Assembly (NCBI GenBank): GCA_036874045.1
Contig: CM072337.1
Coordinates: 7,564,001-7,628,000 of the forward strand
Reading direction: 5' to 3'
Length of the DNA: 64,000 bases
From: Cymodocea nodosa
Lineage: Eukaryota; Streptophyta; Magnoliopsida; Alismatales; Cymodoceaceae
The translations under genes and the position numbers were made by a program. Numbering within the stretch: the first letter of the stretch is position 1; each line of letters begins with the position of its first letter. The notes under the pieces are model-generated. The model searched no databases, was not told the origin of the DNA, and saw only the letters and a list, made by a program, of their open reading frames with translations. Positions 13,851-58,937 of the stretch are shown here, piece by piece.

Positions 13851-13853
13851 AAA

Positions 13854-16297: not shown

Positions 16298-16309
16298 GCT
16301 CTGATACCA
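16298..16309 (-). other. Primer binding site of Copia A1 (tRNA-iMet type)
   Basis: On the element strand TGGTATCAGAGC begins two bases after the 5' LTR end (CCTACA). It is complementary to the 3' end of plant initiator methionine tRNA and fixes the orientation of the element. Confidence 0.93.
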
Positions 16310-16311
16310 CT

Positions 16312-18015: not shown

Positions 18016-18020
18016 ATTTC

Positions 18021-19445: not shown

Positions 19446-19450
19446 AAATG

Positions 19451-19881
19451 CAATTGGTTTTCTTGCACCATACAAGACCACTAGGTATCACTTACTAGAA
19501 TTTCAATCCTCACAACCACACGGTGCAGAGGAGCATTTCAATTATTTACATTCTTCTTTGAAGAATGTTGTTGAGCGTGCATTTGGAGTATTGAAGAGGA
19601 GGTGGCACATTTTGAATCATATGCCACCATTTCCATACACTACTCAAGTAAAGTTAGTGGTTGCTTACATGGTCTTACACAACTTCATAATTGATCAAAA
19701 GTCTATAATGGATCAAGAAACATTATCAATCAATCAAGATGAAGAACCTATTGAAGTTCATGATCAAGAAATGTTAACAAGTACCAACTATGAAGTTCCT
19801 CTTATGTTAGACGAGTTGGACATGGGTACTATGCATGACAACATTAGGGATCTAATAATGCAAAATGAATGCTTTGTTTGA
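19451..19881 (+). pseudogene. Harbinger transposase, C-terminal part
   Basis: After the solo LTR the reading continues AIGFLAPYKTTRYHL, then LKNVVERAFGVLKRRW with the catalytic Glu of the DDE triad, HMPPFPYTTQVKLVVA and MVLHNFII, which are all hallmark Harbinger transposase blocks. It ends at the stop at 19,879-19,881 after an acidic tail. This part has no internal stop. Taken with the other pieces, all three catalytic residues are still present although the frame is broken upstream. Confidence 0.9.
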
Positions 19882-27989: not shown

Positions 27990-28390
27990 AACTCGTAAAT
28001 AACATTCTGTTTTATATTTATAATGCACATCTATAAAGCAAATGAATCTCGTTGCAAGAACGTATCTTGTAACATGTAGTATGGTTCCTATATTTATGGA
28101 TACGTGTTTCACTTCTAATTTCAAATTTTAGTAACCGTTGAACCCAAGAAGTTTTGTTAGTAGCTAAAAGAATAGCTGTTCAGCTTAATCCACAAACTAA
28201 CCTTGTTAAGTTACAGTTAACTCAACGGACTAGCTTCGGTTACTATTTTGCTAACTCCACGGACTAACTTTGTTGAGTTATAGTTAACTTAACGAAGTGA
28301 CCTTATATTTTATTATTGACCTCATGGAGTTAAGGTTAACTTAACGGACTTACTTTGTTGAGTTAACACTTAGCAAATTTCTAAAACTCA
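27990..28390 (-). promoter_or_regulatory. Motif array and TATA box ahead of the capsid ORF
   Basis: Toward the gag ORF, inverted-repeat motifs (GTCCGTTAAGTTAACC, GTCCGTTGAGTTAACTGTAA and others, 28,180-28,380) are followed by ATTATAAATATAAAAC (28,024-28,009), a good TATA box, about 180 bases before the ATG. The promoter function is inferred. Confidence 0.45.
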
Positions 28391-31089: not shown

Positions 31090-31425
31090 GAACAGAATGG
31101 AATTGCTTTGATCTCTACTATTCTAAATTCTAAATGAGTCTGCGGATAATGCCCCCAAATCCTAAGTTTTAGTATAAATAAACCCTAAGTTTAGGTAGGT
31201 AATCGGGTCATTTTCCTGCGCAACTCTTGCTCTCTCATCTACCTCTCTATGGAGTTACAGTTAACTCCACAGACTAAGTCCGTGGACTTAACTACAGTAC
31301 TCTGTTGAGTTATAGTTAACTCAACGGGGTAAGTTCGTTAACTTATCCTAGACTCAATGGAGTAAGTTTGTTGAGTTAAGCGTAACTCAACAAACTTTCC
31401 GTAAAGTTATAACTAATAAAAATAC
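31090..31425 (-). promoter_or_regulatory. Putative internal promoter of Gypsy D1 ORF3
   Basis: Toward ORF3, six or more arms of the GTTGAGTTA/TAACTCAAC type (31,250-31,410; for example GTTGAGTTA-ACTA-TAACTCAAC) are followed by TATTTATACT (31,180-31,171) and the ORF3 ATG 94 bases on. D2 keeps the same layout at 48,641-48,979. Confidence 0.5.
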
Positions 31426-34057: not shown

Positions 34058-34062
34058 GAAAG
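34058..34062. repeat. Target-site duplication GAAAG, left of element X
   Basis: It is identical to 42,797-42,801 on the other side of X. The reading of D1 RT continues across when one copy is discounted. Confidence 0.95.
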
Positions 34063-36650
34063 TGTTGAATATTTTGTTTTGATGATATGTGATAAATGGA
34101 TATAATCATATTTACTCAATTACTGTTGTTTGTGAAAGTAATTTAAGAACATCAATTAATACAGAAAAAGTTTATTGATATAAATACTTGTCTATAATGG
34201 ATCTGAAATTATACTATTAAATAACTAGTTGTTATGTTACACTAACTTATCATTTAACTAAACGTTAAGTTAACGTGTGTTATTTAGAATGAAAAAGTGC
34301 ATATTATTAATGGTTAAATGATGGTTAATTGCATAATATTTAGCTTATCATATAAGAATTAAGTCATTATGTTATAGTTGCACTGTTATATGCTTTAATT
34401 GAAGAATCTACTTAATTTTGGGGAATTAATGTTAATTTAGTACATTTCTGAACTGTTGGTAAGTTGCAGGCTGTGAAATTCTTAAGTATCCGAATTTTCT
34501 GATAATTCAGACAGTTATGTTTAATAGATCGAACATGTCGGATAGTTATGTTTAAATTGCCGAGCAATTATGTTTTGAAAGTTTCCTGAAGTTAATAACT
34601 AGTCGTTTCGTTGCATTAATTTCTCATTTAGCTAAACGTTAAGTTAACGTGTGTTTTTATTGAAAAACATGATATATTTTAAAGTTATATCTTTTGTATC
34701 ACGTGAGGTGCACATGTTTAACTCGTTAAGTTAACATAACTAAACGCGTTGTGTTGCTATATTGAACACTAAGGCAACGCGTTAGGTTAGCGTTATAAAC
34801 TTAAGTTGTTATTTTTGCACATGGTAAAATTCTTATTATAAAAACATTTGTTTATTACTGAATCGGTGAGTTATCTATAACTATCCAAAATTGCAGTTGG
34901 GCATCGAACATTTATATGTATAACTCTCCGAAATCTCTTTTTATTTATAAAATAGTTGAGGACACGTGTCATGTTCTGGGAAAGTGACTTAAGTGGATTT
35001 TTGGTGAGTTATCTCTAACTATCCGAAATGCATTTGGGCATCAGATAGTTAGCTCCGTAACTCTTCGAAATGTTATTTTATAATTAAACTACTGTTGAGA
35101 TGTGTCGAGATCTGGTAGATTTACTTAAGTTATATATCAGTGAGTTATTTGTAATTATCCGAAATGCATCTAAGCATCAGATAGTTAAGTTTATAAGTAT
35201 CCGAAATGCACCTGAGCATCGGATAGTTAAATTTATGCACCTGTTTTATAGTTAAATCAACGAAGAAAGTCCATTGAGTTATCTGTAACTCCACAGACTA
35301 TTTATTTTCTAATATGCCACTGTAGCGGTTGCAGGAACAGATAGTTGGAAGAGAAAAACCACATTTGCATATATCACGCAAGGAGAAGAAATCATCGCCG
35401 TTGATACGAATGAAGGAAATCCAATCGACCATTCAAGCAGAAGTAGTTACTACTGAAGAAATATAAAACAAAAGAGGAAAAAGAAGAAAGTGGGTGATCG
35501 ATGGACGACTAGTGTATACAGAGGAGGAGCATCAAGCTTTCTGCAAACAGTATCGATGATTCTCTGAAGTATTACACCAACCATCGTTACCACCACCACA
35601 ATCACCAACCATCGGAGGTCTGTGAGAATACTTTCTTGATGACGGGTTGATTCCGAGCCAAACACAGTGCTTGACAACCATTGTGAGGAGTGATCGCGTT
35701 GCGGGAAGGGAAGCCATTTTCACCAGGCGCCGACTCATTTTTTAGGAGATCGTAAAGCTTTTAGCCTTGGCTTCGGGTTGATGCCTGTATGCTGAAGAGA
35801 AGATTATCTTGCAATTCTGGACTCACGATTCTATAGGGAGAGAAGACAGAATTGTAAGTAGTTTAATTTTCAGTGGTGTAATTTTCAGTATTTACTGTCG
35901 AGTGAGATTACTTTACATTTCACATTTCGCCCATTTCCATGTTCATATTAAGCCAAAAAATACCAAAAACAACTTATCTACTATTGTATGTTGTATTTGA
36001 GTGTTGTATTATTTGTGTTGTATCGTGATTAATGTTATCTTTATCAGTGCTATGATTGTTTTATGTTTATTTTAGTTTTACAGTTTACTGAAATTGGTTC
36101 GTTCAAAAGACTTAAAGATTTTAATGGTTACTATTTGAATTATCTGAATGTTAGTATTGCTTAATGATAAATCCAATGTTAACTGACATTAAAGAGCTTA
36201 ATTGATGTTATTTACAATCTATGGAATCGCCCAATGGTTGGTCGAATTCCTTTGTAAATAGCAGTATTAAAAAGAAAAGACAGGCTCGTGGAGTTAACTT
36301 AAGTCCACGAGGTTAGTCCGTTGAATTAGCCATAATTCAACAAACTTTGTCCATTGAGTTAACTGTAATTCAACGGAGAGCTTATTGAATATATAAATTT
36401 GATTGTTAACAAACGAACAGTTCTCAAGTTCTTCAGCAATTTCCTGTGGGATCGACCTGTACTTGCACACTGATACAATAGACACTATGCACTTGCAATT
36501 AAAGTACAAATTGGAATTAATATCTAAATTGTATTAAAGGTTGTTTGTTTACTTCTAAAAGAAAGAATAGGCATAAAGATAAATTAACTAAGTAAAAATA
36601 GAAGTAACAAATCCAAGTTTTTCTAGTGTAGTGCTGGGAAAACACAAACA
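34063..36650 (+). repeat. Mosaic 5' LTR of X (A-D-A-D segments)
   Basis: Bases 34,063-34,280 match the family A LTR start (compare 41,219). Bases 34,281 to about 34,590 match the family D LTR start (compare 61,152 and 63,457: TTTAGAATGAAAAAGTGC). From about 34,586 to 34,873 it matches family A again (compare A1), then it matches D to about 36,650 (compare 61,560-62,904 and the inverse of 45,329-46,960). The joins fall in shared short motifs: CTGAAG/TTGAAG at 34,586-34,591 and GGTGAGTTA at 34,865-34,873. The LTR 3' end is placed at ACA, seven bases before the primer site. Confidence 0.8.
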
Positions 36651-36657
36651 AGTTTTA

Positions 36658-36675
36658 TGGCGCCGTTGCCGGGGA
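36658..36675 (+). other. Primer binding site of X (tRNA-Asp type)
   Basis: TGGCGCCGTTGCCGGGGA is the primer site usual for Athila-type Gypsy elements and is taken as complementary to tRNA-Asp. It differs from the tRNA-iMet site of Copia families A and C, so the 5' half of X is Gypsy. Confidence 0.85.
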
Positions 36676-36769
36676 ATTGACTTGAATTGAATTGAATTAA
36701 TATAAGCAACTATTAGAGCTGTTTCGTTTTAATAGCCAGAGTTGTGTGTTTTCTTTTGTAATTGAGAAT

Positions 36770-37981
36770 ATGGCATATGCTTATGCTCAAAGATTTCTGA
36801 AACCTGTAATTAGCATATGTGAATTCTGCAATTCTGAAGGACACGACATTTCTGACTGTTTGAAATTGAGACATTTACAGATGGTTAGATCCCATGAACA
36901 ACAAATGAATTATCCTTAGTATAATAGATCCGAGTATGAGAATCCTATAGTTTACCCAACTGATGGTTAGTATAGAATGTGTAATATGTTGAGAGACACT
37001 GAAGTTTGGGATATGTATGACAGATTGGAGCGTAGTATAGAGCAAAATTTGGACAAACTGGAATACTTTATGTGTCAACAACAAGAAGTCAACCAATTAA
37101 ACTATAAGGAAGCATATTCAGAACCTAAAAAGGATATAATTTACGAAACTGAGAAAACCATAATGAAAATTGATCAAAAATTGAATGCAATGAAATTAGA
37201 TGATCTGTAAAGAAAATTAAAAGCATTAAACGAATATACAATGAAAATACAAGTTATGCAACAGGACAATGAAAATTATAATGTTATAAACCTACATAGT
37301 TTGCAAAATATACAGCAAACAGAAAATACTAATGCAAGAGAATTTAAAGAATGCACTTTAAAACTAAAAATAATTGAAGATCATAATTACGAAAATGATA
37401 TACAAAAACATCATGAGAGTAACGAAAATCTGGAAGATGTATGTATAACATTAAGATCTGGAATTGATATACCACTAAGAACTTAAAATGAAAATAATAT
37501 GAAGGTGGATAAGAGTAAAAATCAAAATGATAATAAAAATGTAATAGTTGAAAATCTAGAAATCACTAAAGAACAATTTGAATATGCTAATGAAGCTAAA
37601 AATGATCAAACAAATCAACTGAAAGAAAAAGAGTCTTTGAAATCAAAATCTTTAGCACCCTATCTTAAAAGATTACAACAAACAATACCTGAAAAACAAG
37701 AAAAAATTAGAGAAATTTTTGAAAAAGTACAAGTTAACATTCCTTTGTTAGATCTATTGCAGAAAATGCCACCTTGTGCTAAATTTCTGAAGGATTGATG
37801 TTCTAGGAAAAGAGAGCGAAAAGTTCTTAGAAAGGTATTTTTAGTTGAGCAAAGTAGTTCTCTATTTCTGTCACAAATTCCTAAAAAGTTATTTGATCCT
37901 GAAATCCGTGTTATATCATGCACCATAGGAAATACCATTCTAGAAAGAACCTTAATAGACTTAGGTGCAGGTATAAATGTT
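36770..37981 (+). pseudogene. X nucleocapsid knuckle and linker ORF (no capsid)
   Basis: ATG 36,770 (MAYAYAQRFLKP) lies only 95 bases after the primer site. The protein starts directly with a CCHC knuckle, CEFCNSEGHDISDC. It continues with coiled-coil-like sequence, VCITLRSGIDIP (the LRSG block of Athila gag-pol), APYLKRLQQTIPEKQ, and VNIPLLDLLQKMPPCAKFLKD ahead of protease. The capsid domain that should precede the knuckle is missing, and there is no room for it. Stops at about 36,916, 36,967, 37,207, 37,484 and 37,796 are mostly CAG/CAA-to-TAG/TAA or TGG-to-TGA changes. Confidence 0.8.
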
Positions 37982-39835
37982 ATGCCAAGTGATATATTTG
38001 CATCCTTAGGATTAGAAGGCTTAACTCCTACTAGTACGGTTATTCAACTAGCTGATAGAAGTATAAGATACCCTAGAGGAAAAATAGAGGATGTCTTAAT
38101 TAAAATCAAAAATTTTATATATCTTATTGATATTGTAATTTTGGATTCCCAACAAATTAAGCATAAAAATAGTGATACATCTTTAATTTTGGGAAGGCCA
38201 TTTTTAGCAACATCAAGGGATGTTATAAATTGTAAAACTGGAGTAATGAAATTAGCATATGGTAATGAGGATACTCAATTAAATATTTTCAAACCAGAAA
38301 GGTTTGAGGAGTTAGAAATGTCCTTACATACCATAGACTTTTTAGAGGATGAAGGAGATATGTTAGATGATGTGATTCAAGAAGAATTAAATAGGCAAAT
38401 CAATTTTTAAATTTTAGAAGAAAGTGAAAGCATAAATATAGAAGGAGATCAGGAAGAAACTTATTTAGAAAATGATGATGTTCAATTGGGAGCTCTAGCT
38501 TCTAATGGGCAGCATTTAGAATTAAAACATTTACCTCCTGAATTAACCTATATATTTCTGGAAGATAAACGAACCTGTCCAATCATTATTGCTTCAAATT
38601 TAAAAGAGGATCAAATAGCTAAATTAAAAGATGTAGTAAAAAGTTATAAAGAAGCAATAGGATGGACTATGACTGATATAAAAGGGTTAAGTTCAACTTT
38701 ATGCTATCACCACATATATTTAGAAGAGAATGCTAAACTTGTTAGAATTCCTGAGAGAAGATTAAATCCAAACCTTAAAGAAGTAGTCAGGAAGGAAATA
38801 GTTAAATGGTTAGATAATGACATAATTTATCCGATTTCTGATAGCTCATGGGTTAGCCCAATCCATGTAGTTCCCAAGAAATCAGGATTAACAGTTATTA
38901 GGAATGAAAGTCAAGACTTGATACCTACTAGAATTCAATCAGGTTGGAGAGTATGTATAGACTATAGAAAGCTGAATGCTGTGACTAGGAAAGATCATTT
39001 TCCCTTACCTTTTATAGATCAAATGTTGGAAAGATTAGCAGGGCAAGAATATTTTTGTTTCCTAGACGAGTATTCAGGGTATAATCAAATTCCAGTAGCA
39101 TTAGAGGATCAAGAGAAAACAACTTTCACCTGTCCTAATGGAACTTATGCTTTTAAGAGAATGCCATTCGGATTATGCAATGCACCAGCTACCTTTCAAA
39201 GATGTATGCAAGGCATGTTTACTGGAATGACTGAAGATTTCTTAGAAATATTTATGGATGATTTTACTGTATATGGCAACTCATATGAAGTCTGTTTAAA
39301 AAATTTAGACCTAATATTAAAACGTTGTGTGGAAAAAAATCTGGTTTTAAATTGGGAAAAATGTCACTTCATGGTTAAACAAGGAATAGTCTTAGGGCAT
39401 GTTGTTTCTAAGAAAGGGTTGGAAGTAGATAAAGTTAAAATTAAAGTAATTTCTAATCTACCTGAACCTAAATCAGTAAAAGATATTAGATCATTTCTAA
39501 GACATGCTGGTTTTTATAGAAGATTTATTAAAGACTTTAGCAAGATAGCTAGACCTTTAACTAATCTATTAAAAGATGTTCCATTTAACTTTGATAAAAA
39601 TTGTAAGGAAACATTTTTCAGACTTAAGACTAGCTTAATTTCAACTCTTATAATTCAAGCACCTGATTGGAACTATCCATTTGAATTAATGTGCGATGCT
39701 TCTGATTTTGCTGTAGGAGCAGTGTTGGGACAGAAGATTGAAAAATTTCCTAGAGTGATTCATTATGCAAGCAAAACCTTAAATGATGCTCAAGTTAATT
39801 ACACAACTACTGAAAAAGAATTATTAGTTGTTGTG
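37900..39835 (+). pseudogene. X protease, reverse transcriptase and RNase H start (Gypsy)
   Basis: The protease block reads LIDLGAGINVMPSDIFASLGL-like sequence (the DLGA active-site motif typical of Athila). After GRPFLAT and a stop at about 38,408, a long open frame (38,486-39,835) holds RT: WLDNDIIYPISDSSWVSP, WRVCIDYRKLNAVTRKDH, TYAFKRMPFGLCNAPATF and the intact catalytic FMDDFTVYG. Then comes the start of RNase H ([28 protein letters not shown]). At about 39,835 the Gypsy reading ends and Copia ORF3 begins, so most of RNase H and all of integrase are missing. X could not integrate on its own. Confidence 0.9.
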
Positions 39836-40690
39836 CATGCTCGTCCAATAAAATTCAAAAATTTGATGTAAATAAGAGATTTTTTTGAGTTTCAAGGCTT
39901 AATTCAGTTCTTACCAGTTGGAACAAAATGGAAACAATACAAAGAACTTATTGCAGCTTTTTATAGCAATCTAGTCAAGAATGACAATATACTGCAAATT
40001 CAAATAAATCAACAAGAGTTCACATTGTCTCTTGAATTAATTTTTGAAGTTTTAGGATTGAAAAATGAAGGTGTTGTTGTTACTAATAGATTTGACATGG
40101 TTAGACAATTGGAATGGGACATTTAGTCTTTATCAAAGATTCCAGATGTATATAGTGAAATGAGATTAATGGAAAATCTGAATATAGAGGCAAAGTTTAT
40201 TGCAAATATATTGCATGCCAATTTATTTCAGAGAGTCGGACACAATATGGAAGTCAGTAGAAGCTGTTTATATGCAACTTATGGTCTATTGAATAGAATT
40301 CAAATCAATTGGTTTGATGTTTTCATTTCTCAACTACAGCATATGAGTTCAAAGTTATTTTTTGGTGATGCTGTATGTAGAATCCTTGCAAACCAATTGA
40401 ATTTATCTAACTGGCCTTCTGAAACTAAAGGCATGAGAGCTTTTAGTGTAAAAGATTTGCAAACATTCCAGGCCATGCATCAACCTCAACCTCATCATCA
40501 ACAACAACAACCAACAGAATGTACAAAACACATACAACCACAACAGCCAAGTTATTCAGATCAAGCACAACAGCATCCCCAACTACCTCCTTCCTTAGAT
40601 GTAGTGCTTAACGACATTAGAAATGATATTAGGCATCTAGGAGATAAAATCTGTAATGCTATAAGTGATATTCTTAGGAGGAATAGATAA
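39836..40690 (+). pseudogene. X third ORF, of Copia A origin
   Basis: This continues from the join at 39,833-39,835 with ARPIKFKNLM and aligns with A1 ORF3 to its end. It contains LIFEVLGLKNEGVVV, MENLNIEAKFIANILHANLF, ATYGLLNRIQINW, MRAFSVKDLQTF, a glutamine- and histidine-rich linker (QPHHQQQQP), and the C-terminal helix IRNDIRHLGDKIC-NAISDILRRNR. The last 176 codons (40,160-40,690) are open; upstream of them TAA and TAG stops occur. The putative plant transposon-protein domain is therefore shared by both Copia copies and by the Gypsy D elements. The function is unknown. Confidence 0.75.
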
Positions 40691-41218
40691 ATGTCAAGTC
40701 ATTTGTCTATTTGTTTGTTTCTGAATACAAAATGTATTATTTGTATTTATTGTTTGATTCATTGAACAATATATTTTTATGTAAATAGTTCAATTCTTAT
40801 TTATATTTGCAGAAAGTTGAGTTGTATACACTTATCTCTTAATTTATATACTATGTAATCATCTTTTTTGATTAATGACAAAAAGGGGGAGAAATGTTAT
40901 AAATTCAAAAGAAGAAGATGATTATGATTTTAATTATATATGTTATAAAGGGAGATGATATTTAAGTGGTTATGACAGATGATAATGTAATCTGAAAGAA
41001 AATTATGTGGTTATTAAAATCTAAAGATACTTATGTAATTATTGACATCTGAAAGTTTTATTTCTGAGAGGTGAATTTTACACAAACAATAGAAATAAGC
41101 TTAAGTCAACAAACTTGTTTGTTGAATTAAAAGTTAACCCAACGAAGGTGCTTTGTTGAGTTAAATATATTTCATAATTGATTTAATATGGTTTTGTCAT
41201 CATCAAAAAGAGGGAGAT
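40691..41218 (+). other. X 3' untranslated region with two polypurine tracts
   Basis: ACAAAAAGGGGGAGAAAT at about 40,878 and AAAAAGAGGGAGAT at 41,205-41,218, the latter directly before the LTR. This matches the arrangement in A1 and is Sirevirus-like. Confidence 0.8.
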
Positions 41219-42796
41219 TGTTGAGTATTTTGTTTTGATGATATGTGATAAATGGATATAATCATATTTACTCAATTACTATTATTTGTGAAAGTAATTT
41301 AAGAACATCAATTAATACAGAAAAGTTTACTGATATAAATACTTGTCTGTAATGGATCTGAAATTATACTATTAAATAACTAGTCGTTACGTTATACTAA
41401 CTTGTCATTTAACTAAACGTTAAGTTAACGTGTGTTTTTATCATAAAGCATGATATATTTTAAAGTTATTTCTTCTATATCATGAGCAATGCACGTTTAA
41501 AAAACTCGTTAAGTTAGAGTGTTATTTGTATAGAGGTCACGCGAGAACTCGTTGAGTTATAGGCTTAAAGGTTAAAATAGGTCACGTGAGAACTTGTTAA
41601 GTTAGTGAGTAAAAGAAGAGATGAACTCGTTAAGTTAGTGTTATACATGTGGTGAAATTAATGGTTACGAATGTTATATTGTATCATGTGAGTTGCACAT
41701 GTTTAACTCGTTAAATTAACATAACTAAACGCGTTGAGTTGCTATATTGAACACTAAGGCAATGCATTAGGTTAGCGTTATAAACTTAAGTTGTTATTTT
41801 TTGCACATGGTAAAATTCTTATTATAAAAATATTTATTTATTATTGGTTCATTGAGTTATCTGTAACACAACGGAGTTGGTTCGTTGAGTTATCGTAACA
41901 CCACAGAGTTGGTTTGTTGAGTTAGGGTAACACCACAGACTTAGTTCGTTGAGTTAGCTACAATACTTGTCATGTGAGTTGGCACATGAGGAACTCGTTA
42001 AATTAGAAACGTTAAGTTATATATTTACTTGTGTTACTCATTTAGTTAACATTAAAGTAATGACTTATTATTACACTTGATGAAAAATTTTGGACGAGAA
42101 AGTTTATTTTGCAGGAGATTTTTCAGAGATCCAGGATTGATGATTAAAGAAAATTCGAAATGTAAACGTGGGTTAGAACATGTGTATTTTGATGAAGGAA
42201 AAAGAGAAGACATGAAGAAGTGGAAAACTGGTAGTGATTAAACGTGGAGGATATGTATGAAATGAAGATACAATATAAAAGGCATAGAATTCTCGTTGAT
42301 CAACCATCCCTACATACCAAACGAAAAATCTTTTTAGGGATCAAAAACACCTCTTCGGGGAAAAGCTCTTAAGTGGAAGAAAATTCAGTGAAGTAGAAAA
42401 GGTCAGATTTATGTCACTAAAGATTTGAAGTATCAGAAGAAAGAAAATTTGGTGAAGTAGAGAATGACAAGATATTCATCACTGAAGAATTGCTGAAGAA
42501 GAAAAAGAAGAAGAAGAAGAAAGATCTCAAACAGGGAGAAACGTTTTAAATTTCGCACATTAGTTTTCTCTATTTGTAGTTATGAAATTGTATAGATGAA
42601 ACATGGTATCGATATATAATTGCATCTACAATTTCTTAGGAGAATTGAATTGTATATTGTAATTGAAACCTTGAATAAAGATGATTTTATGAAAATAGTG
42701 TCTCGACTTGTTTTTGAGTTTTGAAATTTCAATTATAATTGGAAAAAGTTGAAAAACACAATTCACCCCCCTCTTGTGTAGCCATACGATCCTACA
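41219..42796 (+). repeat. 3' LTR of X, pure Copia family A (1,578 bp)
   Basis: It runs from TGTTGAGTATTTTG to GATCCTACA. It aligns end to end with A1 LTRs (inverse orientation) and A2. The motif array lies at 41,490-42,020 and the TATA-like ATATAAAAGGC near 42,272. Unlike the 5' LTR it contains no family D segment. Confidence 0.9.
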
Positions 42797-42801
42797 GAAA
42801 G
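42797..42801. repeat. Target-site duplication GAAAG, right of element X
   Basis: A perfect copy of 34,058-34,062. Confidence 0.95.
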
Positions 42802-45328: not shown

Positions 45329-47303
45329 TGTATTGTTTGTGAAAAGTTAAATCTTAAACTTACTTATATCAATAATTTCTTTTAGAAGTAAACAAGCAAC
45401 CTTTTACACAAATTAAACATTAATTCCAATTTGTATTTTAACTGCAAGTGCACAGTGTATATTGTATTTGTATGCAAGTACAGGTTGATCCTACAGAGAT
45501 TGAGTAAGAATTGTGTACTGTTCCGATTTTTATATTGGAGTTTATATGCATTTAGTTAAGTACTCTGTTGACTTAAGGTTAACATAACGGACTTAGTTCG
45601 TGGAGTTATGGCTAACTCAATGGACAAACCTCGTGGACTTAAGTTAACTCCACGAGCCTATTTTTCCAGTTGAATATTGTTAATTACAAAGGAATTCGGC
45701 CAACCATTGGGCAGTTCCATAGATTGTAAATAACATCAATTAAGCTCTTTAATGTTAGTTAATATTAGATTTATCATTAAGCAATACTAAGATTCAGATA
45801 TTTCAAACAATAACTATTAAAATCTTTAAATATCTGGAATGAATCAATTTCAGTAAACAATAAAACTATTTTCTATTTTCTGAATCAAATAAACATGAAA
45901 CATTCACAATACTGACAATGATAACATTAATCACGATACAAAACAAACAATACAACACTTTAATACTAAATGTAAACACAGATAATTTGTTGTTTTTGGT
46001 ATTTTTGTTTTGATATGTTCCTGAAGATGAATGAAAGTTGAAATGTAAAATTCTCCATCGATAGTAAAAACTTTCGACACTACATGGGACGCGATTACAC
46101 CATTGAAAACTTAATCACTTACAATCCTGCCTCCTCTCCCTATAGAATCGTGAATCCAAAATTGTAAGATGATCTCCTCTTCAACATACTGGCATCAACC
46201 CGAAACCAATGCTAGAAGCTTTATGATCTCCTGAGATATGAGTCGGTGCTTGGTGAAAATGGCTTCCCTTCCCGCGATGCGATCACTCCTCACAGTGGTT
46301 GTCAAGCATCGTGTTTGGTTTGGAATCGACTCGACATAAAGAAAGTATCCTCACAGACCTCCGATGGTTGGTGATTTTGGTGGTGGTGTGGAGCTTCTAG
46401 GAACTTCCAACATTTCCTGCAATTAGCGTGGTTCTCCACCTTTACACACACTTTCTTCGTCTTTTTTTCTTCTTTTATATTTCTTTCAGTAATAACTGCT
46501 TCTACTTAAATGATCAGTTGAATTTCCTTCATTCATATCAACGATGGTGATTTTTTCTTCATTCCATGAGTGAATTCCTGCGTAATATGTGCAATCGTGG
46601 TTTTCCTTCGAATTTCCTGTTTCTAAAACTACTACAGTGGCATATTAGAAAATAAATGGTTTGTGGAGTTATAGATAACTCAATGGACTTACTTCGTTGA
46701 TTTAACTATAAAACACGTGCAATAAAGAAATAACTCATAAGCTTACTAACATAATATGTTACGTTAATGTATATTCAAGTAACTCAACGCGTATAGTTAT
46801 GCTAACTTAACGAGTTGTACATGTGCAACTTACGTGACATAATAAAGTATTTAAATTCAACACGTGCATAATTCTAATTTAACGAGTTCAGATATTTTAG
46901 ATACTTACGAACCTAACTATCCGATGCCTAGATGCATTTCGGATAGTTACCAGATAACTTACTGAAAATTCACTTAAGTCATGCATTATGGTTACAACAC
47001 GTGTACTCTAAGAAATAATAAAATATTCTTTAAGCATTTAAAACATAACTATCTGATACATGCAATATAACTCTCTAAAATAACAAAAAATTCGAATACT
47101 TAAGAATTAAAAATTTGCAATTCACTGACAGTTCAAAAATGTACTTAATTAACGTTAATTCCTTGAAATTATGCAGATTCTTTTATTAAAGCGTATAACA
47201 ATGCAATTATAACATAATGGCTTAATTCTCATATGATAAGCTAAATATTCTGTAATTAACCATCATTTAACTGTTAATATTATGAACTTTTTCATTCTAG
47301 ACA
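45329..47303 (-). repeat. 5' LTR of Gypsy D1 (about 1,975 bp)
   Basis: The element strand starts TGTCTAGAATGAAAAAG at 47,303 and ends ACA seven bases before the primer site. It is homologous to D segments of X and to the LTRs at 61,152 and 63,457. It carries shared inverted-repeat motifs at 46,660-46,960 and 45,560-45,660. The neighbouring base 47,304 begins plus-strand Gypsy integrase, so the LTR end sits exactly at an insertion junction. Confidence 0.82.
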
Positions 47304-48269
47304 AATATCAAAGAAGAATATGATGTCTCTGAATCCTATTGTTGAGGTTGAAATCTTTGATGTGTGGGGAATAGATTTTATGGGTCCATTTCCTATGTCT
47401 AATCAATTTAATTATATATTGTTGGGGGTGGATTATGTATCTAAATGGATAGAAGCTATTCCTACAAACACTATTAACAATAAAGTGGTAATACATTTTA
47501 TAAGAACTAATATAATTGCTAGATTTGGAATACCTAAAGCTATTATCAATGGTAGAGGAACTCATTTTTGTAATAGAAGTTTTGAAGCCTTAATGAAGAA
47601 ATATGGAGTAAATTACAAAATAGCAACATCATATCATCCGCAAACAAGTAGATAAGTAGAAAGTGCAACCAAACAAATTAAGTTAATCTTAGAATAAGTT
47701 GTAAATCCTACTAGAAAAGATTGGGCTAATAGATTAATAGATGCACTTTGGGCTAATAGAACTACTTATAAAATAAGCTTAGGTATGTCATCTTTTAGGG
47801 TAGTATATGGAAAAAGTTGCCACCAGCTGAAATTGAACATAAAGCTTATTGGGCGTTAAAAACTCTAAACACTAATTTAAATCAAGCTACTGACAATAGA
47901 AAAATGTAATTGATTGAGTTAGAAGAATTTAGGAATGAAGCTTATTTGAAAACTGTAAAAGAAAAAGAGAAAATGAAGTTTTAGCATGACAAGAAAATTA
48001 TTCCAAAAACTTTTGAAATAGGATAAGAAGTATATTTTTACATGACTAGACTTCATAACCATCTAGGAAAATTAAGATCTAGATGGGCATGACCTTATAT
48101 AGTTCGAAATATTTATTCTTATGGAGCTATTGAAATTGAAAATCTTAAGAATCAGAAAATATTTAAAGTAAATGGACAAAGACTTAGACCTATTTTGAAA
48201 TTTCCAAAAAGTTCATTCGGAATTATAGAACAAGTAAGAGTAGAGGACTACTTGAGTTCTATTAAGTAA
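47304..48269 (+). pseudogene. Gypsy D2 integrase fragment and pol C-terminus
   Basis: Plus-strand homologue of D1 integrase beginning mid-domain at the codons before [17 protein letters not shown] (first catalytic Asp nearby in IDFMGPF). It continues [33 protein letters not shown] with the second Asp replaced (D1 reads ISDK), and the region of catalytic Glu (VESATKQIK) after a stop. Frameshifts follow. The C-terminal frame ends VRVEDYLSSIK at the stop at 48,267-48,269. Pol upstream of this point is missing because the D1 LTR abuts 47,304. Confidence 0.85.
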
Positions 48270-48978
48270 AAGAATATATGTAAAAAAATTATTATTATTA
48301 TTATTTTATTATAGCAACAATCTAACTGAAAGAAATTATTAGTTTTACCAAAGTAGGAAATTAAAAGAAAAATTTTGTTACGATCACATCAAAAGGATCC
48401 ATCGGTCTAATCGAAACTAAAAAAAGAAAAAAATATATTATATTAAGTAAAAGTTGTGGTTTGACTGAAACATGATCGGTTCAATCAAATATAAAAAAAA
48501 GAAAGAGAGTGTAATTTTAGTTCAATCGAGGAAGTACAATGGTCTGACCGAAGTTAAGAAAATAGTAAAATTAAGAGTCGGTTAGATCGGAGATTCTTCG
48601 GTTTGGACCGAATATAAATTATTATTATAAGTTATAACTTTATGGGAAGTCCATTGAGTTAAGTTTAACTCAAAGAACTTACTCCGTTGAGTCTAGGATA
48701 AGTTAACGAAGTTACTCTGTTGAGTTAACTGTAACTCAATGGAGTACTTAAGGTAAGTCCACAGATTTAGTCCATGGAGTTAACTGTAACTCCACGGAGT
48801 AGTATGTGTCAGTAGCGATAGATTGTGCGAGAAATGACCCGATTACCTGCCAAAAACTTAAGGTTTATTTAGACTAAAACTTAGGATTTGGGGGCATTAT
48901 TCGCAAAAATCATTTAGAACTTAGAACAGTAAAGATTAGAGTTGTTCCGTTCTGTTCAATAACACAACAAAGACCAAG
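48270..48978 (+). promoter_or_regulatory. D2 palindromic spacer, motif array and degenerate TATA
   Basis: CGGTTCAATC and GGTCTGACCGAAG palindromes (48,400-48,620), then GTCCATTGAGTTAAG, TCCGTTGAGTC, GTTGAGTTA-ACTG-TAACTCAA and similar arms (48,650-48,800), then GGTTTATTTAGAC (about 48,871) in place of the TATA of D1. The same order as 31,090-31,794 shows that this is a family feature. Confidence 0.55.
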
Positions 48979-50085
48979 ATGGAGCAAAACTTCTAAGATC
49001 GGATTGACACTACTAGATTTCTCAAAGAGTCGGAGGAATGACATTCGAGGCAAAAAATCAGAAATACGACTAGAGAGAAGCAATTAGAAAAGGTAGAGGA
49101 TGACCTCTCTTTTTTTACAAAAGTTTTAGTAGATTTGAATGTCAGAATACTTGCATTATTGGAGACAAGAATACAAGTAGCTATTGAGATTGCTATGAAT
49201 AGAGAAAGAAAAATCAGACCAAATAATGAAGTTGCCCTAGAACTTATTAGAAGGAAATCTCAATTGTTGTTTATAAGGGAGATAGTTGCATATGTAAGAA
49301 TGCAACACATAGAGCAATAAAGAAAAGAACAAGTTGAACTGCAAGAAGAACAAGAGCAGCAGTCGGAACCTTCATATCGATAACAACAAAGAGAGCAAGT
49401 TGAAATGTCGACTGTAGCAATAGAACAATCAAGACCTTCAATTCGACCATTTGAACTACTAGAAAGGGTGGTAGTTATGGGTCCATCTACTAAAGAGGAG
49501 TTGAGAGAATTTGAAGAATTGGTTTGATTTGGAAAAGGCCAAGGAGAATCAGAAGATATGGTAGTAGTAAAAGCACATTTGGTGTTTGATGCACTTCAGA
49601 AGAGAAGGGCTGTAGAAAAGTTGAAGGCTCAATACAAAATTAAAGTGGAAAAGCATCAAGAAGCAACTTCTATACCTATTACAAGAGAATATGAGGTTGG
49701 ACCTTCGAGACCAACAATTATAGAGGAAGTGAAACAGGAAGAGTTAGTACCTATGGCTCGAGGGCCTGAAGAGCCCATTTTTGTTGATTTAGTATCTAAA
49801 GAAGAAGAAGAAGATCAAACATAACTATTTAGAAGAAGAAAAGGAAAAGGAAAAGTGCTTGAGATTGTAGAGGAAAATATAAAAGCTGAACCTATAGTAC
49901 CAGTAGTAGGGCATAAAGAGCCCATTTTTGTAGATTTATTATCAAAAGAAGAAGAGCAAGAGCAAGAGCAAGAGCAAAGAAGAGAAGAAAAATAGGTTGA
50001 TAAAGAGCTACAGCCTAAAGAAACTAAAGTTAGGGCAAAATATGTTGTGCCCGAGACTCTATCCCAATTTGCCAATGAATCATAA
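48979..50085 (+). pseudogene. Gypsy D2 third ORF, C-terminal domain lost
   Basis: Aligned with D1 ORF3 from its start: TRFLKE, RERKIRPNNEVALELIRRKS (49,198-49,260), GPSTKEELREFEELV, KRRAVEKLKAQYKIKVE, SRPTIIEEVKQEELVPMA, EPIFVDLVSKEEEEDQ and a second EPIFVDLLSKEEE. It stops matching near 50,085 (LSQFANES). The globular C-terminal domain present in D1 is absent. Stops near 48,993, 49,318, 49,381, 49,526, 49,822 and 49,993 disable it. Confidence 0.72.
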
Positions 50086-52108: not shown

Positions 52109-53898
52109 TATTAGTACCCGAGTATTTTGATAATGCAAAACCTATGTGAGGAAACATATTGTATTTCACAGTTAAGTCTTACTGCATTAGATTAGAAGGC
52201 TGTTAGAACTATTTCCAGGCAGATGAAAAGATCAAGAAGGTTCCAGATGAACAGATCAAGAAGAATCAACAAAATCGAACAGTTACAGGTCTAAGTATCT
52301 GAAAAGCAAGTTTAAAGCAGCAACAATGCTATCAGACAGTTAAAAGAATAACTATCTGATTTTACAAAGCCTTCAGAGAGTTATTTAATCAGATAGTTAA
52401 AGGGATTGAATGATCAGATAGCTAAGGAGATAACTATCCGAAAGCTTAAAGGACTTTTCGGAGAGTTACAGGTATAACTATCTGAAAGTTAAGTCATTCA
52501 ATAAACCACGTGCAGAAATACAGAATGGAAGCTTAAAAGACTTGTCGGAGAGTTAGATAACTATCCGAGTTTTCTTTTCGGAGAGTTAGATAACTATTCA
52601 AGTTTTTCGGTAAGTTACAGGCATAACTTTCCAGAACTTAAGTCATTTTATTACGCACGTGCAAAATGGAGAAAGCCGGCAGTTGAAAGTTTAAATGGGA
52701 AAATCGGAGAGTTAGATAACTATCCGAAATTTAAAAGAGAGTTTCGGTAAGTTATAGTTTAACTATCCGAAACTTAAGTCAGTGAATTTCCCATGTGTAG
52801 AAATCCAGACAGATGCTCAAATAGGTTTTCGGAGAGTTAGAAGGATAATTATCCGAAATTTCAAAAGAGTTTCGGTGAGTTACAGTTTAACCATCCGAAA
52901 CTTAAGTCATTGAATTTCCCACGTGTAGAATTCTACACAGTGGCTCAAATAAGTTTTCGGAGAGTTAGAAAAATAACTATCTGAAATCCTGAAGAATTTC
53001 GGTGAGTTACAGGATAACCTTCCGAAACTTAAGTCAGTCTTCTATGCACGTGCTAAATTAAAATCAGAAAGTTGACAGAGTCAAGTATATAACTGTTCGG
53101 TGAGTTACAGTTATAAGTATCCGATTGGATGACAGCTTACATTTAAATATTCTAGAATTCTACCTGGCAGTAAAGGATAAGTAATCTTTCGGTGAGTTAC
53201 AGTTACTCTTCGGAGAGTTACATAGCTAACTATCTGAAAGAATAGGGAAATCGGTAAGTTGACTTGAAATGTTTTTCTGAACAGTCACTTGCCGTATTGG
53301 GACTTGATACTAATCAAGTACAGTAGAATACATCTGTTGGAGGAAAATATGATCGTTGTACATATCAAGTATATATTCAAAATACAGACAACGAATATAT
53401 AGTAGAGATATACAGTGAGCTACACTCGAATTCCATTCATACTCAAGTCTTCAAACAATAAAGAATATTCAGAAGATCCATTGCAGAAAAAAGCTCTTGC
53501 GCCAAAACTCTAATTGAAGGTTTAAAGCTGTTGGTTCGTGGCTTCAACCTGAAAGCTACATACAGTGTTGGTTTGAGTTTCGACTTAAAAACTCTAAAGG
53601 TTGGTTTACTGAAGTTTTTACCTGAAAACTTCAGTGTAGTTGGTTCTTGCTTTGACCTGAAAGCAAGTGTGTAAGTGTTGAAACACTTAGTGAAGCCCAA
53701 GTGAACCTTGGGGGTGGACTAGCCAAATTGGTGAACCACCTAAAAATTTGTTGTGTTTCTTATCTCTGTTAATTTGGATTATATTAGTTTCATCTCATTT
53801 CAATTTTTGTTGAATTATTCGATTCAACATTAAAAGAATTTTAAAAATACACACTTTCACCATTCACCCCCCCTCTGGTGAGCCTATCGATCTTAACA
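52109..53898 (+). repeat. 5' LTR of Copia C1 (1,790 bp)
   Basis: Between 52,300 and 53,240 about six units of roughly 125 bases each carry TTTTCGGAGAGTTA, TAACTATCCGAAA, a second pair GGTGAGTTACAG with AACTATCCGAAACTTAAGTCA-like sequence, and a CACGTG box (near 52,505, 52,655, 52,923 and 53,045; a CATGTG variant near 52,792). Neighbouring arms are complementary and could fold as hairpins. Confidence 0.93.
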
Positions 53899-53900
53899 AT

Positions 53901-53912
53901 TGGTATCAGAGC
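53901..53912 (+). other. Primer binding site of Copia C1 (tRNA-iMet type)
   Basis: TGGTATCAGAGC two bases after the LTR end, identical to the site of A1. Confidence 0.95.
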
Positions 53913-53949
53913 AAGGTTAATCCTTCATAAGATTTAACCATCTGGATTT

Positions 53950-55258
53950 ATGGTTCAATTTGTTGAGGGACAAAATATCCACAGACCTCCTCTATTCGAT
54001 GGTTCCAATTATAAATATTGGAAGAATAGAATGGAGTGCTTCCTTAGGAGTTCAGATGTTAAACTCTAGAAGACTATTGTTCTTGGAACTACACTTCCAA
54101 CCAGTGATATTTCGAACTGGTCAAAGGAGGATGAGAAGATCATCTAGCTGGATGCTAGAGGGCTGAATGCTATTTATTGTGCACTAACTGCTGATCAATA
54201 TAATAAAGTATCTGCAGGTAAATCTGCTCATGAGGCGTGGAAAATCCTTCAAGTTACTCATGAAGGTACAAGCCAGGTTAAGGATACAAAAATCAGTATT
54301 CTTTTAAGAAAACTTGAACTGTTTAAAATGAATGATAATGAAAACATAACTGAAATATTTTCTAGATTTACTGAAATCACTAACAGTCTGAAAGGCTTGG
54401 GAAATGAGTTCTCTTCACGTGAACAGGTATAGAAGATCCTGAGGAGCTTAACTATTGAGTGGAAATAGAAGTCCACATCTATTCAAGATTCCAAGGATCT
54501 TAACAACTATACAGTTGAAGAATTGTTGGGCAATCTTCTAGCCCACGAAGCTTAGATGAAGGACTGGAAAGAGCAAGAAGGAACTGTTGAAAAGAAAGCT
54601 GAAAAGAAAAAGGAAGTAACATTTCCATCAACAGAAGAAGTTCCTAGCTCAGATGATGATGAGATCATGTTGCTGGCAAGAAATTTCAAAAAATTCATGA
54701 AAAAAAAGAACTATTCCTACATGTTTCAAATATAAAAGGCAAGGGCACATATAGACCTTCTGTCCATTTCAGACAGAAGAGGATCAAGGAGATAAGAAGA
54801 AGAGATTGAAAGACAAAAAGAAGATGGCTCTTAAAGCTACATGGGATGACAATAGCTCTCTAAGCCGTTCATCAGAGTCTGAAGAAGAAGCTGCAGCAAA
54901 TGTTTGTTTTGCAGCACAAGAGGTATGCTCTACTTCCTCTAGTTCAGAAAATGAGCATGATGATCTAGACATAAATAGTCTTTTATCTACTGTAGATAAT
55001 TTATATGTGAAGTGTAGAGATTTTAAGACAGAAATTAAAAGATTAAATCAGTGCTTAGAAAATTCATTTGCTGAATTAGAATCAACTATAGTTGAAAATA
55101 GGAATCTAAAATCAAATTTAGATAAGTATAGTTGTGATAACTGTAAATTAAAAGATGAAAATAAAATTCTATCAACTACTATATCAGATTTGAAAAATAC
55201 TGTATGTAAATTTACTCAAGGACAAAAAGGATTAAATAAAATAATAGGATCTCAATGA
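53950..55258 (+). pseudogene. C1 gag, Sirevirus type (broken)
   Basis: ATG 53,950 (MVQFVEGQNIHRPPLFDGS) starts 38 bases after the primer site. UBN2-type gag blocks follow: NYKYWKNRMECFL, AWKILQVTHEGTSQVKD and ITNSLKGLGNEF. The nucleocapsid knuckle (54,719-54,764) reads CFKY where CxxC is expected, so the second Cys has become Tyr, and it also holds a stop. ALKATWDDNSS with the TWDD motif and a Ser/Glu-rich run follow (54,824-54,900). A coiled-coil-like tail (54,960-55,258) ends at TGA 55,256-55,258. Stops at about 54,069, 54,147, 54,430, 54,467 and 54,555, many at former CAG/TGG codons, disable it. Confidence 0.88.
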
Positions 55259-56777
55259 TCAAATGGGAATAAATATGGCCTAGGGTATGCTACACCACAA
55301 GAAATACCTTATTGTGGTGGAGTGATTCGATCTTATAGAGATGGCACCATTGTGTTTTCCATCAAACGAAGATCAGGTCATATGTGGTTGCCAAGAGGCA
55401 ATAGATTTAATGTTTTAAGGACTAACTCCTCTGGACCCAAGAAGATTTGGGTATCAAAAGCTTTAATTTCAGTATGATTTGTAGGGTGACAAGGAGTTTC
55501 AAGCACGTTCAACTAAATGGATTGTGGACAGTGGATGCTCAAAGCACATGACAGGTAAGAAAAGCTTTCTTGACTCTGTTAAAAACTTAAGTTTAGGATC
55601 TGTTAAGTTTGGAAATAATGAAAAATGTAAAATAACTGCAATAGGGAATATTACATCTGAAAATGGTATAATTGAGAATGTCTTGCATGTAAATGGATTA
55701 AAACAAAATTTGTTAAGTGTAGGACAATTATGTGATAAAGGCTATACTGTTTCTTTTAATGCTAAAAACTGCTACATTATTGATCCTACCACAAATGAAA
55801 CAAAATTTACTAGTATTAGAAATTGCTCAATATATACATTAAACTTTCCATGTGAAAATTCTACAAGCAATTCCTGTTTGGTAGCAATTGGTGAAGACGA
55901 TTGGGTGTGGCATAGAAGACTTGGTCACATCAGCATGAAGAATATCAGAAAGCTATCTACGGGTGATCTTGTTAGGGGTCTGCCTAAACTCACTTTTAAG
56001 AAGTATAGAGTGTGCTGTGAGTGTATGCTAGGGAAGCAGAAGAGAACTGCTCATCATAGCAAAAGTGTTGTTTCCACCAAAAGGCCATTAGAACTGCTAC
56101 ATCTAGATTTGTTTGGTCCTTCTCAAGTATCAAGTCTTGGGGGTCGAAAATATACCTTTGTTATTGTTGATGACTTCTCTAGATTAACTTGGGTAATATT
56201 TTTGACACATAAAAATGAAACTTGCAATGAGTTTAGGAATTTCTGCATAAGAGTTCAGAATCAGAAGGAACTAATAGTGAAGAAAATTAGAAGTGATCAT
56301 GGAGGTGAATTTGAAAACTATGAATTTGAAAACCTCTTCAATTCATTTGGAATTTTGCATGAATTCTCTTGTCCTAGAACTCCTGCTCAAAATGGAGTTG
56401 TGGAAAGAAAAAATAGGACATTATAAGAAATGGCTAGAACTATGTTAAGTGCCACGAATCTACCTAAATTTCTCTGAGCAGAAGCTGTAGGAACAACTTG
56501 TTACATTTCCAACAAAACTCACATTAGATCCATATTGAATAAGACACCCTTTGAAATTTGGTTCGATAAAACTCCAAATGTGGGCTATTTTAAGACATTT
56601 GGATGCAAATGTTATGTCTTAAATACAGGAAATGCTAAAGACAAGTTTAATGCTAAGTTTGAACCTACCATACTTGTTGGTTACTCCTCGAGAAGTAAAG
56701 CTTACAGAGTATATTTTGCTGAAGATAGAAGAGTAGAGGAAAGTATAAATGTTCAGTTTGATGAAGATCTGTTCTAG
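55259..56777 (+). pseudogene. C1 protease and integrase
   Basis: The protease motif WIVDSGCSKHMT lies at about 55,518. The GAG-pre-integrase block WHRRLGHISM then CECMLGK (zinc ligands) leads to the integrase core: first Asp in LLHLDLFGP, second in KIRSDHGGEF, Glu in NGVVERKNR, so all three catalytic residues remain. A stop follows RTL (56,426) and another comes before AEAVG. The C-terminal part FEIWFDKTPNVGYFKTFGCKC is open to 56,777. A frameshift near 55,480 separates gag from protease. Confidence 0.9.
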
Positions 56778-58553
56778 AATTTCAAAAAGCTGAAGATTAA
56801 TGATGATAGTAAAAATGAAGACTTTGAAGATGATAAAAGCAAGCAGAATACCAATTCACAAGTGTTAGACCAGAATCTCAACCTTAGATATTAGAATCAT
56901 AATAGTTGGAAGTTTAGATCTGATCATCCCGAGGAACAAATTATTGGAAATATATCCAAAGGGGTACAAACCAGAAGCAAAGCGCAAGATATCTGTAATT
57001 TTTGTGCATTTGTGTCAGAAATAGAGCCAAAATCAGTAAATGAAGCCTGTAAGGATACCTACTAGACAATGACCATGCAAGAAGAATTAAATCAGTTCCA
57101 GAAAAATAATGTGTGGGAACTAATAGAAAAACCTGTAGGAAAATCCATCATTGGAACTAAATGGATTTTCAAAAACAAATTAGATGAAGATGGTAACATT
57201 CTCAAAAATAAAGCTCGATTAGTTGCACAAGGCTACAATCAGCAGGAAGGTATTGACTATGAAGAAACTTTTGCTCCTGTAGCCAGGATTGAAGCTATCA
57301 GAATGTTGCTTGCCTTTGCAAGTAGTATGAAGATAAGATTGTTTCAAATAGATGTGAAAAGTGCCTTCTTAAATGGAGAAATTCAAGAAGAAGTGTTTGT
57401 TAAACAACCTCTTGGATTTGAAGATGAACTCAAGCTGGATCATGTTTACAAATTGAGAAAGGCTCTATATGGTTTGAAACAGGCACTTAGAGCTTGGTAT
57501 GAGAAATTGAAAAGATTTTTAATTGAAAACAATTTTTTTATAGGCAAAGTGGACAACACTTTGTTTATCAAAACTTTTGATGTGCACATATTGATTGTAC
57601 AGATATATGTTGATATAGTCTTTGGAGCCATTTCAGAAGATCTTTGTCATGAATTTCAGAATTTGATGAAAAATAAATTCAAAATGAGCATGATGGGAGA
57701 ATTGAAGTTTTTCTTGGGATTACAGATTTATCAAATACATAATGGTATCTTTGTCAACCAAGAAAAATACTGCAAAGAGATGTTGAAGAAATTTGGTTAT
57801 GAAAACATCAAATCCGCATATACTCCAATGAGCTCAAGCATTAAAATAGAAATGGATGATTCAAGTGTTGCAATGGATCAAAGGCAATATAGAGGTATGA
57901 TTGGATCCCTGTTATACCTTTCAGCTAGCAGGTCAGATATTATGTTTAGTGTATGCTTGTGTGCTAGATTTCAAGCATCACCAAAGGAATCACATTTGAA
58001 ATCAGTCAAACGAATCTTTAGATATCTACAAGGAACAAAAGATTTCGAATTATTCTACTCAGTTGACAGTAGTTTAATTTTAACAGGCTATAGTGATGTA
58101 GATTATGCAGGGAGCAGATCTGATAGAAAAAGCACCAGTGGTACTTGTCAATTACTTGGATGTTCTTTAATCTCATGGTTCAGTAGGAAACAAAATTGTA
58201 TAGCTTTATCTACTACTGAAGCCGAGTATATTGTAGTTGGATTGTGTTGTGCACAAATCCTTTGGATGCAGCAAACTCTAGCAGATTATAGACTGAAAAT
58301 TCAGAATTCAATCATATTTTGTGATAACAGCAGTGCAATCAGTCTATCTAAGAATACAGTACTTCATTCCAGAGCCAAGCATATCGAGATCAGACATCAT
58401 TTTCTGAGAGATCATGTGGAGAAAGAGAACATTTCACTTAAGTTTGTGCCAACAGAAAATCAACTTGAAGATATTTTCACCAAACCTTTAAATGAATTAA
58501 TTTTTAATCATATTAAACGAAATCTAGGAATATGTTCTTTACAAGATCTTTAA
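56778..58553 (+). pseudogene. C1 reverse transcriptase and RNase H (Copia)
   Basis: The frame 57,069-58,553 (494 codons) is fully open. RT blocks: MTMQEELNQFQKNNVWELI, GTKWIFKNKLDEDG, ARLVAQGYNQQEGIDYEETF, FQIDVKSAFLNGE and LYGLKQALRAWYEKL. The catalytic box reads IYVDIVFGA where Copia RTs have YVDD followed by a hydrophobic pair, so one Asp codon has been lost in frame. RNase H: LTGYSDVDYAGSRSDRKST, LSTTEAEYI, DNSSAISLSKN, AKHIEIRHHFLRDH and a C-terminus ending LGICSLQDL. An open frame of this length with a damaged active site suggests slow decay after loss of activity. Stops at about 56,776 and 57,063 precede it. Confidence 0.92.
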
Positions 58554-58937
58554 ATGTTTTATTCATCAAGCTCACAATATGGGAGCTTATTTTTCTGCTA
58601 ACCTACTCGTGCAGGTTATATCAGTTTTATAGAAAAATCAGTTTTACAGTCCTCACCTTTTTATATAATGACAAAAGAGGGAGAAGGATTTGGAAATTTG
58701 TCATGTATATGGTCACTCACAGTATTTCCAGCAAGAATTAAAAGAGAAAAACTCAGTACATAGATAGGGGGAGAAGTCTACTCAAAGTCAGGGAGAGGAA
58801 TCCCTCCTTGTCAGTATAGTTTTGTTAAATTCCTATTTTATGTTTCTCTGTGTGACTAAATGTATAGAAATACACTAGGGAGTGAAATACATGTAAATAA
58901 TTGTAAAGGTTTTTGTCATTATCAAAAAGGGGGAGAT
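58554..58937 (+). other. C1 3' untranslated region with repeated polypurine tracts
   Basis: GACAAAAGAGGGAGAAGG (about 58,670), AGATAGGGGGAGAAG (about 58,763) and AAAAAGGGGGAGAT (58,924-58,937), the last directly before the LTR. Sireviruses are known for multiplied polypurine tracts here. No ORF3. Confidence 0.85.

Follow-up and report, generated by a model that had tools for sequence, protein, structure and literature searches.

In a 64,000-nucleotide stretch of the Cymodocea nodosa genome (the window, to which coordinates refer unless a locus is named), we analyzed an 8.7-kb unit at 34,063-42,796 in which Ty3/Gypsy and Ty1/Copia retrotransposon sequences are joined, as the initial annotation had reported. 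Our results indicate that this unit is very probably a nested, deleted relic rather than a mobile hybrid, and a history of four events explains it best. Earlier and elsewhere, a short stretch of U3 in the long terminal repeat (LTR) of a Gypsy family, here called D, would have been replaced by a several-hundred-bp U3 segment of a Copia family, here called Copia A, and the resulting subfamily was amplified. A Copia A element then inserted into the reverse transcriptase (RT) of the Gypsy copy D1, duplicating GAAAG, and a D element with the chimeric LTR, D3, landed in the left LTR of that Copia element, where its 5' terminus is preserved and its 3' end is gone. Finally a deletion, presumably a single end-joining event, joined the RNase H of D3 to the Copia linker, with loss of the 3' half of D3, the rest of the left Copia LTR, the Copia primer-binding site (PBS) and the Copia gag-pol region. 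The features of the locus are listed below.

34,058-34,062, no strand assigned: left GAAAG target-site duplication, made by the outer Copia element, read from the sequence
34,063-34,280, plus strand: left Copia A LTR, first 218 bp, at a Kimura two-parameter (K2P) distance of 0.043 from the right LTR
34,276-34,280, plus strand: presumed 5-bp target site TGTGT of D3, its partner copy probably deleted
34,281-36,650, plus strand: 5' LTR of D3 (TATTTAGAATG...ACACAAACA), a mosaic; its start is the D LTR terminus and its end is as in L041/L042
34,594-34,864, plus strand: Copia A U3 segment P1, short form, in the D3 LTR; 91.5% to the unit's right LTR, 95.2% to the 3' LTR of the full copy
36,658-36,675, plus strand: PBS of D3, TGGCGCCGTTGCCGGGGA, exact match
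37,799-38,410, plus strand: putative aspartic-protease reading frame of D3, Pfam match below the cut-off
38,411-39,835, plus strand: RT and first part of RNase H of D3, cut at the deletion joint; from the domain search and the end of the D1 match
39,834-39,835, plus strand: deletion joint, D3 pol to Copia linker, with 2 bp (TG) present in both parents, from comparison with D copies
39,836-41,218, plus strand: Copia A linker with open reading frame 3 (ORF3) and polypurine tracts, from the window comparison and motif search
41,219-42,796, plus strand: right Copia A LTR, complete, from the window comparison
42,797-42,801, no strand assigned: right target-site duplication GAAAG, read from the sequence

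The unit starts with TGTTGA, the start of a Copia A LTR, ends with CTACA, and is bordered on either side by GAAAG (34,058-34,062 and 42,797-42,801), as first annotated. Its flanks belong to the minus-strand RT of D1, which is continuous across the unit: D1 at 33,346-34,063 matches D3 at 39,835-39,122 with 89%, D1 from 42,797 onward matches D3 from 39,127 back to 35,232 with 82%, and by eye the two flanks with a single GAAAG reproduce uninterrupted D sequence near 39,110-39,130. The duplication and the continuity of D1 show that the outer borders were made by one insertion event, in agreement with the earlier statements that the RT of D1 resumes across the unit and that the unit is a single integration. 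At the left end of D1 the window comparison found no 3' LTR of this copy; its 5' LTR terminus, at 47,303/47,304, adjoins the middle of the 3' region of another D copy (47,304-50,085).

A segment-wise comparison of LTR divergence paired the left 218 bp with the right LTR of the unit, from which they differ by 9 transitions and 0 transversions over 218 compared sites. The left piece is at K2P 0.17-0.18 from the two LTRs of a full Copia A copy in the window (6,769-18,020) and at 0.24 from a solo LTR, and the right LTR is at 0.14-0.20 from the three other Copia A LTRs compared. The left piece and the right LTR are the pair of one Copia A insertion. The Copia part announced to the right of about 39,835 was borne out as well, running from 39,834-39,836 past one exact polypurine tract AGGGGGAG at 40,884 (two in the full copy) to the LTR at 41,219-42,796, which has a TATA candidate at 42,274. 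The full copy shows Retrotran_gag_2, Pol_BBD and gag_pre-integrs domains, with rve below the cut-off and its RT not located, and carries after its 5' LTR the exact PBS TGGTATCAGAGC, which we take to be an iMet primer site. By these predicted gag and integrase-side domains and by the PBS, Copia A is classed as Ty1/Copia. No Copia PBS was found in 34,063-42,796 at up to 2 mismatches. A second Copia element lies at 52,111-60,722, with LTRs 94.3% identical, internal short repeats, a PBS at 53,901 and an RT frame of 495 amino acids.

The left junction of the Gypsy part, initially placed near 34,280, was refined to 34,280/34,281. D LTRs start with T(G/A)TTTAGAATG, as seen in D63 (at 63,457, after a polypurine tract), in D61 and in copies fetched from the genome, and the end of D1 at 47,303 reads TGTCTAGAATG, the same terminus. 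At 34,281 this terminus directly abuts unbroken Copia LTR sequence, which is the mark of an integration and indicates that D3 was nested in the Copia LTR. The left Copia piece of the unit was absent upstream of the D LTR start in all 19 genomic loci L020-L038. The D3 LTR measures 2,370 bp and has a TATA candidate at 36,390, with another TATA-like word at 34,837 inside the Copia patch described below.

The Gypsy primer site proposed for this element, presumably of the tRNA-Asp type, is exact at 36,658-36,675, and a search for TGGCGCCGTTGCCGGGGA allowing up to 3 mismatches found it 3 times in the window and 0 times in 100 shuffles. The Gypsy RT, said to extend to 39,835, was found with the first part of RNase H within the frame 38,411-39,871, and the match to D1 ends at 39,835. 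The domain search returned RVT_1 and RNase H in D3, and RNase H followed by Integrase_H2C2 in D1 (above the cut-off, with rve below it), which is the Gypsy pol order RT-RNase H-integrase. Named matches in the protein search with the D RT were mostly plant proteins, and viral-contig scans returned 0 matches. The pol order and the PBS point to D elements being Ty3/Gypsy of the Athila type.

At the joint near 39,835 both the unit and Copia A read TGCATGCT. The ten D copies compared (L009-L018) all read TGTTTG followed by CT (7), CC (2) or AT (1), their full reads being TGTTTGCT in 7, TGTTTGCC in 2 and TGTTTGAT in 1; a long microhomology TGCATGCT was rejected because these copies differ and only TG is exact. 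As a yardstick, 19% of junctions placed at random between the two LTRs have at least 2 bases in common. The histidine encoded by the unit at the joint was present in none of the 53 protein matches readable by a second pattern (of 120 read). The joint was also searched in the plant's own genome (374.6 Mb, 28 contigs), with scores computed for the best 40 of 4,094 candidates: the window alone spans it, none of the 39 other places does, and the 10 of these that were fetched further (L009-L018, from seven of which L002-L008 were cut) run on as Gypsy past the joint site. One deletion from D3 pol to the Copia linker accounts for the missing parts.

Alternatively, the nest could be longer and intact and the joint a product of misassembly, as the region is dense in repeats. 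Assembler misjoins occur at long identical overlaps; here only 2 bp are exactly shared by the two sides and the stretch contains no N, and we consider this explanation very unlikely. Slightly less likely still is that RT switched templates between Copia A and D RNAs packaged together, and that the resulting hybrid complementary DNA (cDNA) integrated a single time with the GAAAG duplication; the genome search found no second copy of the joint among the 40 scored places. LTR-retrotransposon RNA begins at R, and U3 is absent from the 5' end of D genomic RNA; the left LTR of the unit is not a copy of the right one, and its 218 bp of Copia are followed by a complete D LTR including U3. The single target duplication and the Copia ends on both sides fit a hybrid cDNA, and such complexes have been reported within Copia families (PMC1950507). 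It was rejected as the origin of the whole unit on the complete D U3, the D terminus at 34,281 and the joint found once among the 40 scored places, with 2 bp exactly shared. The terminus and the single joint likewise leave a D template overwriting Copia A, also proposed at first, without support for the unit, and the earlier argument that its unequal LTRs rule out simple retrotransposition of a hybrid stands.

The nested, deleted relic nevertheless contains a true chimera, in the LTR of D3. The Copia A segment P1 replaces D sequence there between joints at which both parents share sequence, TGAAGT (6 bp) at 34,588-34,593 and GGTGAGTTA (9 bp) at 34,865-34,873, and the junctions first placed near 34,590 and 34,870 proved real, at 34,588-34,594 and 34,865-34,874. 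A genome search with 34,500-34,960 as query scored the best 40 of 6,030 candidate places, and the Gypsy-Copia-Gypsy mosaic recurred at 33 of the 39 other places, these counts being LTR places, not elements, since several places are paired LTRs from a single element. The match covers Copia and both D flanks in one piece at 19 of them and in two pieces at 14; one further place has a D flank on the left side alone, and the other 5 are Copia LTRs lacking D flanks. A joint alignment was tried on 23 D loci, of which 21 gave both anchors (L037 and L038 gave no anchor pair); point changes aside, both joints agree in every one of the 21, as does a 12-bp deletion of D sequence beside the left joint. P1 occurs in forms of about 400, 319 and 284 bp between the anchors. 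Since it is shared by many other D LTRs, the patch arose before D3 landed here; template switching may explain the patch. The possibility that the patch is the rest of the unit's own left LTR was rejected on its identity of 91.5% to the unit's own right LTR versus 95.2% to the full-copy 3' LTR.

Target duplications were examined at 18 places or pairs with the chimeric LTR (six pairs and two single LTRs, then ten LTRs), and 8 showed exact 5-bp copies: ACACA (L041/L042), GTGCC (L047/L048), CTGTT (L051/L052, with the LTR taken to start TATTTAG), ATGTG (L050, a solo LTR), AGCTC (L070/L071), GCACA (L074/L075), ATCCC (L076/L077) and ACAAC (L078/L079). L043/L044 match at 4 of 5 positions. Nine gave no readout, namely L039/L040 and L045/L046 with a truncated 3' LTR, the single LTRs of elements L049, L060/L061, L064/L065 and L066/L067, and also L062/L063, L068/L069 and L072/L073. 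L041 is followed by the primer site with two changes, and a D polypurine tract precedes L042, L044, L048 and L052. Where they align, the two LTRs of a chimeric pair are 90-94% identical, indicating that the insertions are not fresh. The target duplications, shared joints and multiple copies show that the chimeric LTR worked and transposed. A Gypsy subfamily thus appears, from the sequences compared, to have taken up Copia U3 sequence and amplified it.

The evidence points to a transfer from Copia to D, because D LTRs without the patch exist (D61 and D63; the alignments of L012, L014 and L015 run through the unpatched site), in Copia A LTRs the segment sits within continuous Copia sequence, and the P1 forms lack about 80 bp that are retained by the five Copia LTRs having the full region. 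Distances and a tree were computed over 245 columns from 23 D and 10 Copia sequences, with deletion-edge columns removed; mean P1 distances were 0.044 for D-D, 0.072 for Copia-D and 0.085 for Copia-Copia.

Copia-like sequence was found in D LTRs at two other placements. P2, a Copia-like U3 stretch in the D1 LTR (46,714-46,890, minus strand; about 72% to the Copia A LTR), lies at a site other than that of P1 and occurs by matches in 8 of the 19 loci L020-L038, six of which were aligned. P3, about 100 bp close to Copia A U3, lies at about 2,438-2,542 of L010, ends with GCACGTG where D resumes, and was seen by matches in L011. Copia LTRs of the full-copy type contain about 180 bp of D-LTR-like motifs (TAACTATCCGAAA, GACACGTGTC), partly inverted, beside the P1 border; the D-like stretches lie at 7,655-7,834 and 17,200-17,380 on the minus strand. 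Common ancestry or a third source is also possible for P2, P3 and the D-like modules.

As the mechanism of the patch we favour, with modest confidence, a double template switch during reverse transcription, which presumes that Gypsy and Copia RNAs were packaged together. In both elements the segment is found upstream of the TATA candidate (36,390 and 42,274) and is therefore probably in U3; reverse transcription copies U3 into both LTRs in one round, whereas conversion alters a single LTR. A DNA-level origin by gene conversion or templated repair, for example after a D element had nested in a Copia LTR, followed by spread through ordinary retrotransposition, is a serious competitor with a probability somewhat short of even. 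D and Copia A are neighbours here and in L009, and templated repair would account just as well for the short homologies at both joints (they were measured between the full-copy 3' LTR and D63; at least 6 shared bp have a random chance of 0.29% and at least 9 bp of 0.019%, full copy versus D61). The probable U3 position of the segments argues against conversion, and the three different Copia-like placements in D LTRs suggest a repeated route. A broader proposal is tentative and rather doubtful: the Gypsy and Copia elements of this plant might repeatedly swap U3 modules via template switching in mixed virus-like particles, guided by short motifs they share, GGTGAGTTA and GCACGTG among them, with at least one Gypsy subfamily owing its amplified LTR to a Copia donor and with further exchanges in both directions, represented by P2, P3 and the D-like stretch of some Copia LTRs.

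Several points weigh against the four-event history and the direction given to the patch. The second target duplication of D3 is absent, leaving its terminus as the evidence for the D3 insertion step; in each of the two genome searches, scoring was confined to the best 40 candidates; and, the joint at 39,835 being read from the assembly sequence, an internal assembly error there keeps the small probability given above. Support in the P1 tree is low, and the D sequences do not form a clean clade there. Moreover, the deletion of the short form has edges that coincide between Copia (both LTRs of L053, and L054) and D (D3, L020 and L021), and these common edges would possibly also fit a second exchange; we read the deletion as a recurrent one at TGTATCA repeats, and 5 of the 10 aligned Copia LTRs have some deletion in this region. 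In Copia the edges lie at 1,483-1,770 and 6,081-6,368 of L053 and at 1,556-1,843 of L054. A first P1 tree, made with the deletion-edge columns included, had grouped the D short forms with Copia L053/L054, which was attributed to misaligned deletion edges.

Other composite or repeated sequences were observed in the window. At 61,152-64,000 a D/Copia composite consists of a D LTR cut at 62,904, a stretch at 62,903-63,310 with 72% to Copia A internal sequence, a D polypurine tract and, at 63,457, another D LTR. A palindrome-like motif of about 90 bp, TTGAGTTAACTGTAATTCAACGG, occurs in D LTRs, D internal regions and Copia A LTRs (28,205-28,296; 31,300-31,397; 36,286-36,384; 48,650-48,750; 62,693-62,795; 41,850-41,924). 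Further afield are an AT-rich tandem array at 1,979-3,275 (22% GC in 2,001-4,000) and a DDE_Tnp_4 gene fragment of a plant DNA transposon at 19,396-19,881.

Devos et al. 2002 reportedly described nested LTR retrotransposons that later underwent deletion by illegitimate recombination. Nests are described in PMC1950507; those with such deletions show the same element-in-element order, a target duplication of the outer element only and a deletion joint with little homology, and the unit differs from them in nothing essential. The Triticeae template-switching complexes (Sabot and Schulman 2007, PMC1950507) join related elements and have outer LTRs that are complete and alike, plus a third LTR inside; they share with the unit the flanking 5-bp duplication, here GAAAG, and chimeric LTRs are discussed for them. 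In the unit, however, the left outer LTR ends after 218 bp, broken at the Gypsy terminus, and in place of two complete cores with an internal LTR both cores are truncated at 39,835. BARE-2 and Veju_L are reportedly chimeras within one superfamily, unlike the chimeric LTR described here, which joins Ty3/Gypsy and Ty1/Copia. Both are named in PMC1950507 as recombinant LTR retrotransposons thought to derive from template switching, in which they resemble the patched LTR.

According to the available parts of PMC1142308, the Diaspora/Calypso/Athila lineage of Ty3-gypsy has a tRNA-Asp PBS a few bases past the LTR, with which TGGCGCCGTTGCCGGGGA is consistent, and the Diaspora LTR measures 2,524 bp; D3 is similar in its PBS at 36,658, soon after the LTR end at 36,650, and in its LTR of 2,370 bp, and those parts do not mention a Copia segment in U3. 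Sirevirus Copia elements, as described in the available parts of PMC2829016, have on average about four AGGGGGAG tracts in a long linker, a reading frame after pol and an LTR of about 1.6 kb. Copia A resembles them, on that description, in the tracts before its 3' LTR, the frame after pol and the LTR of about 1.6 kb, but has one exact tract in the unit linker and two in the full copy. The literature searched, represented mostly by titles and the openings of abstracts and with subscription papers mostly outside it, contained no report of an amplified Gypsy-Copia LTR mosaic.

The surprising part is the patched Gypsy subfamily, a kind of mixing between two distant types of retrotransposon that has rarely been documented; the unit itself is an ordinary nest that has undergone a deletion. 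A further caution is that classifying elements by their LTRs can mix the two superfamilies. Recombination of LTRs is known within families; a Copia-derived U3 in an amplified Gypsy subfamily, if true, would mean that control regions cross superfamilies, and would bear on regulatory change in retrotransposons, on their escape from silencing and on whether RNA is cross-packaged by unrelated Gag particles.

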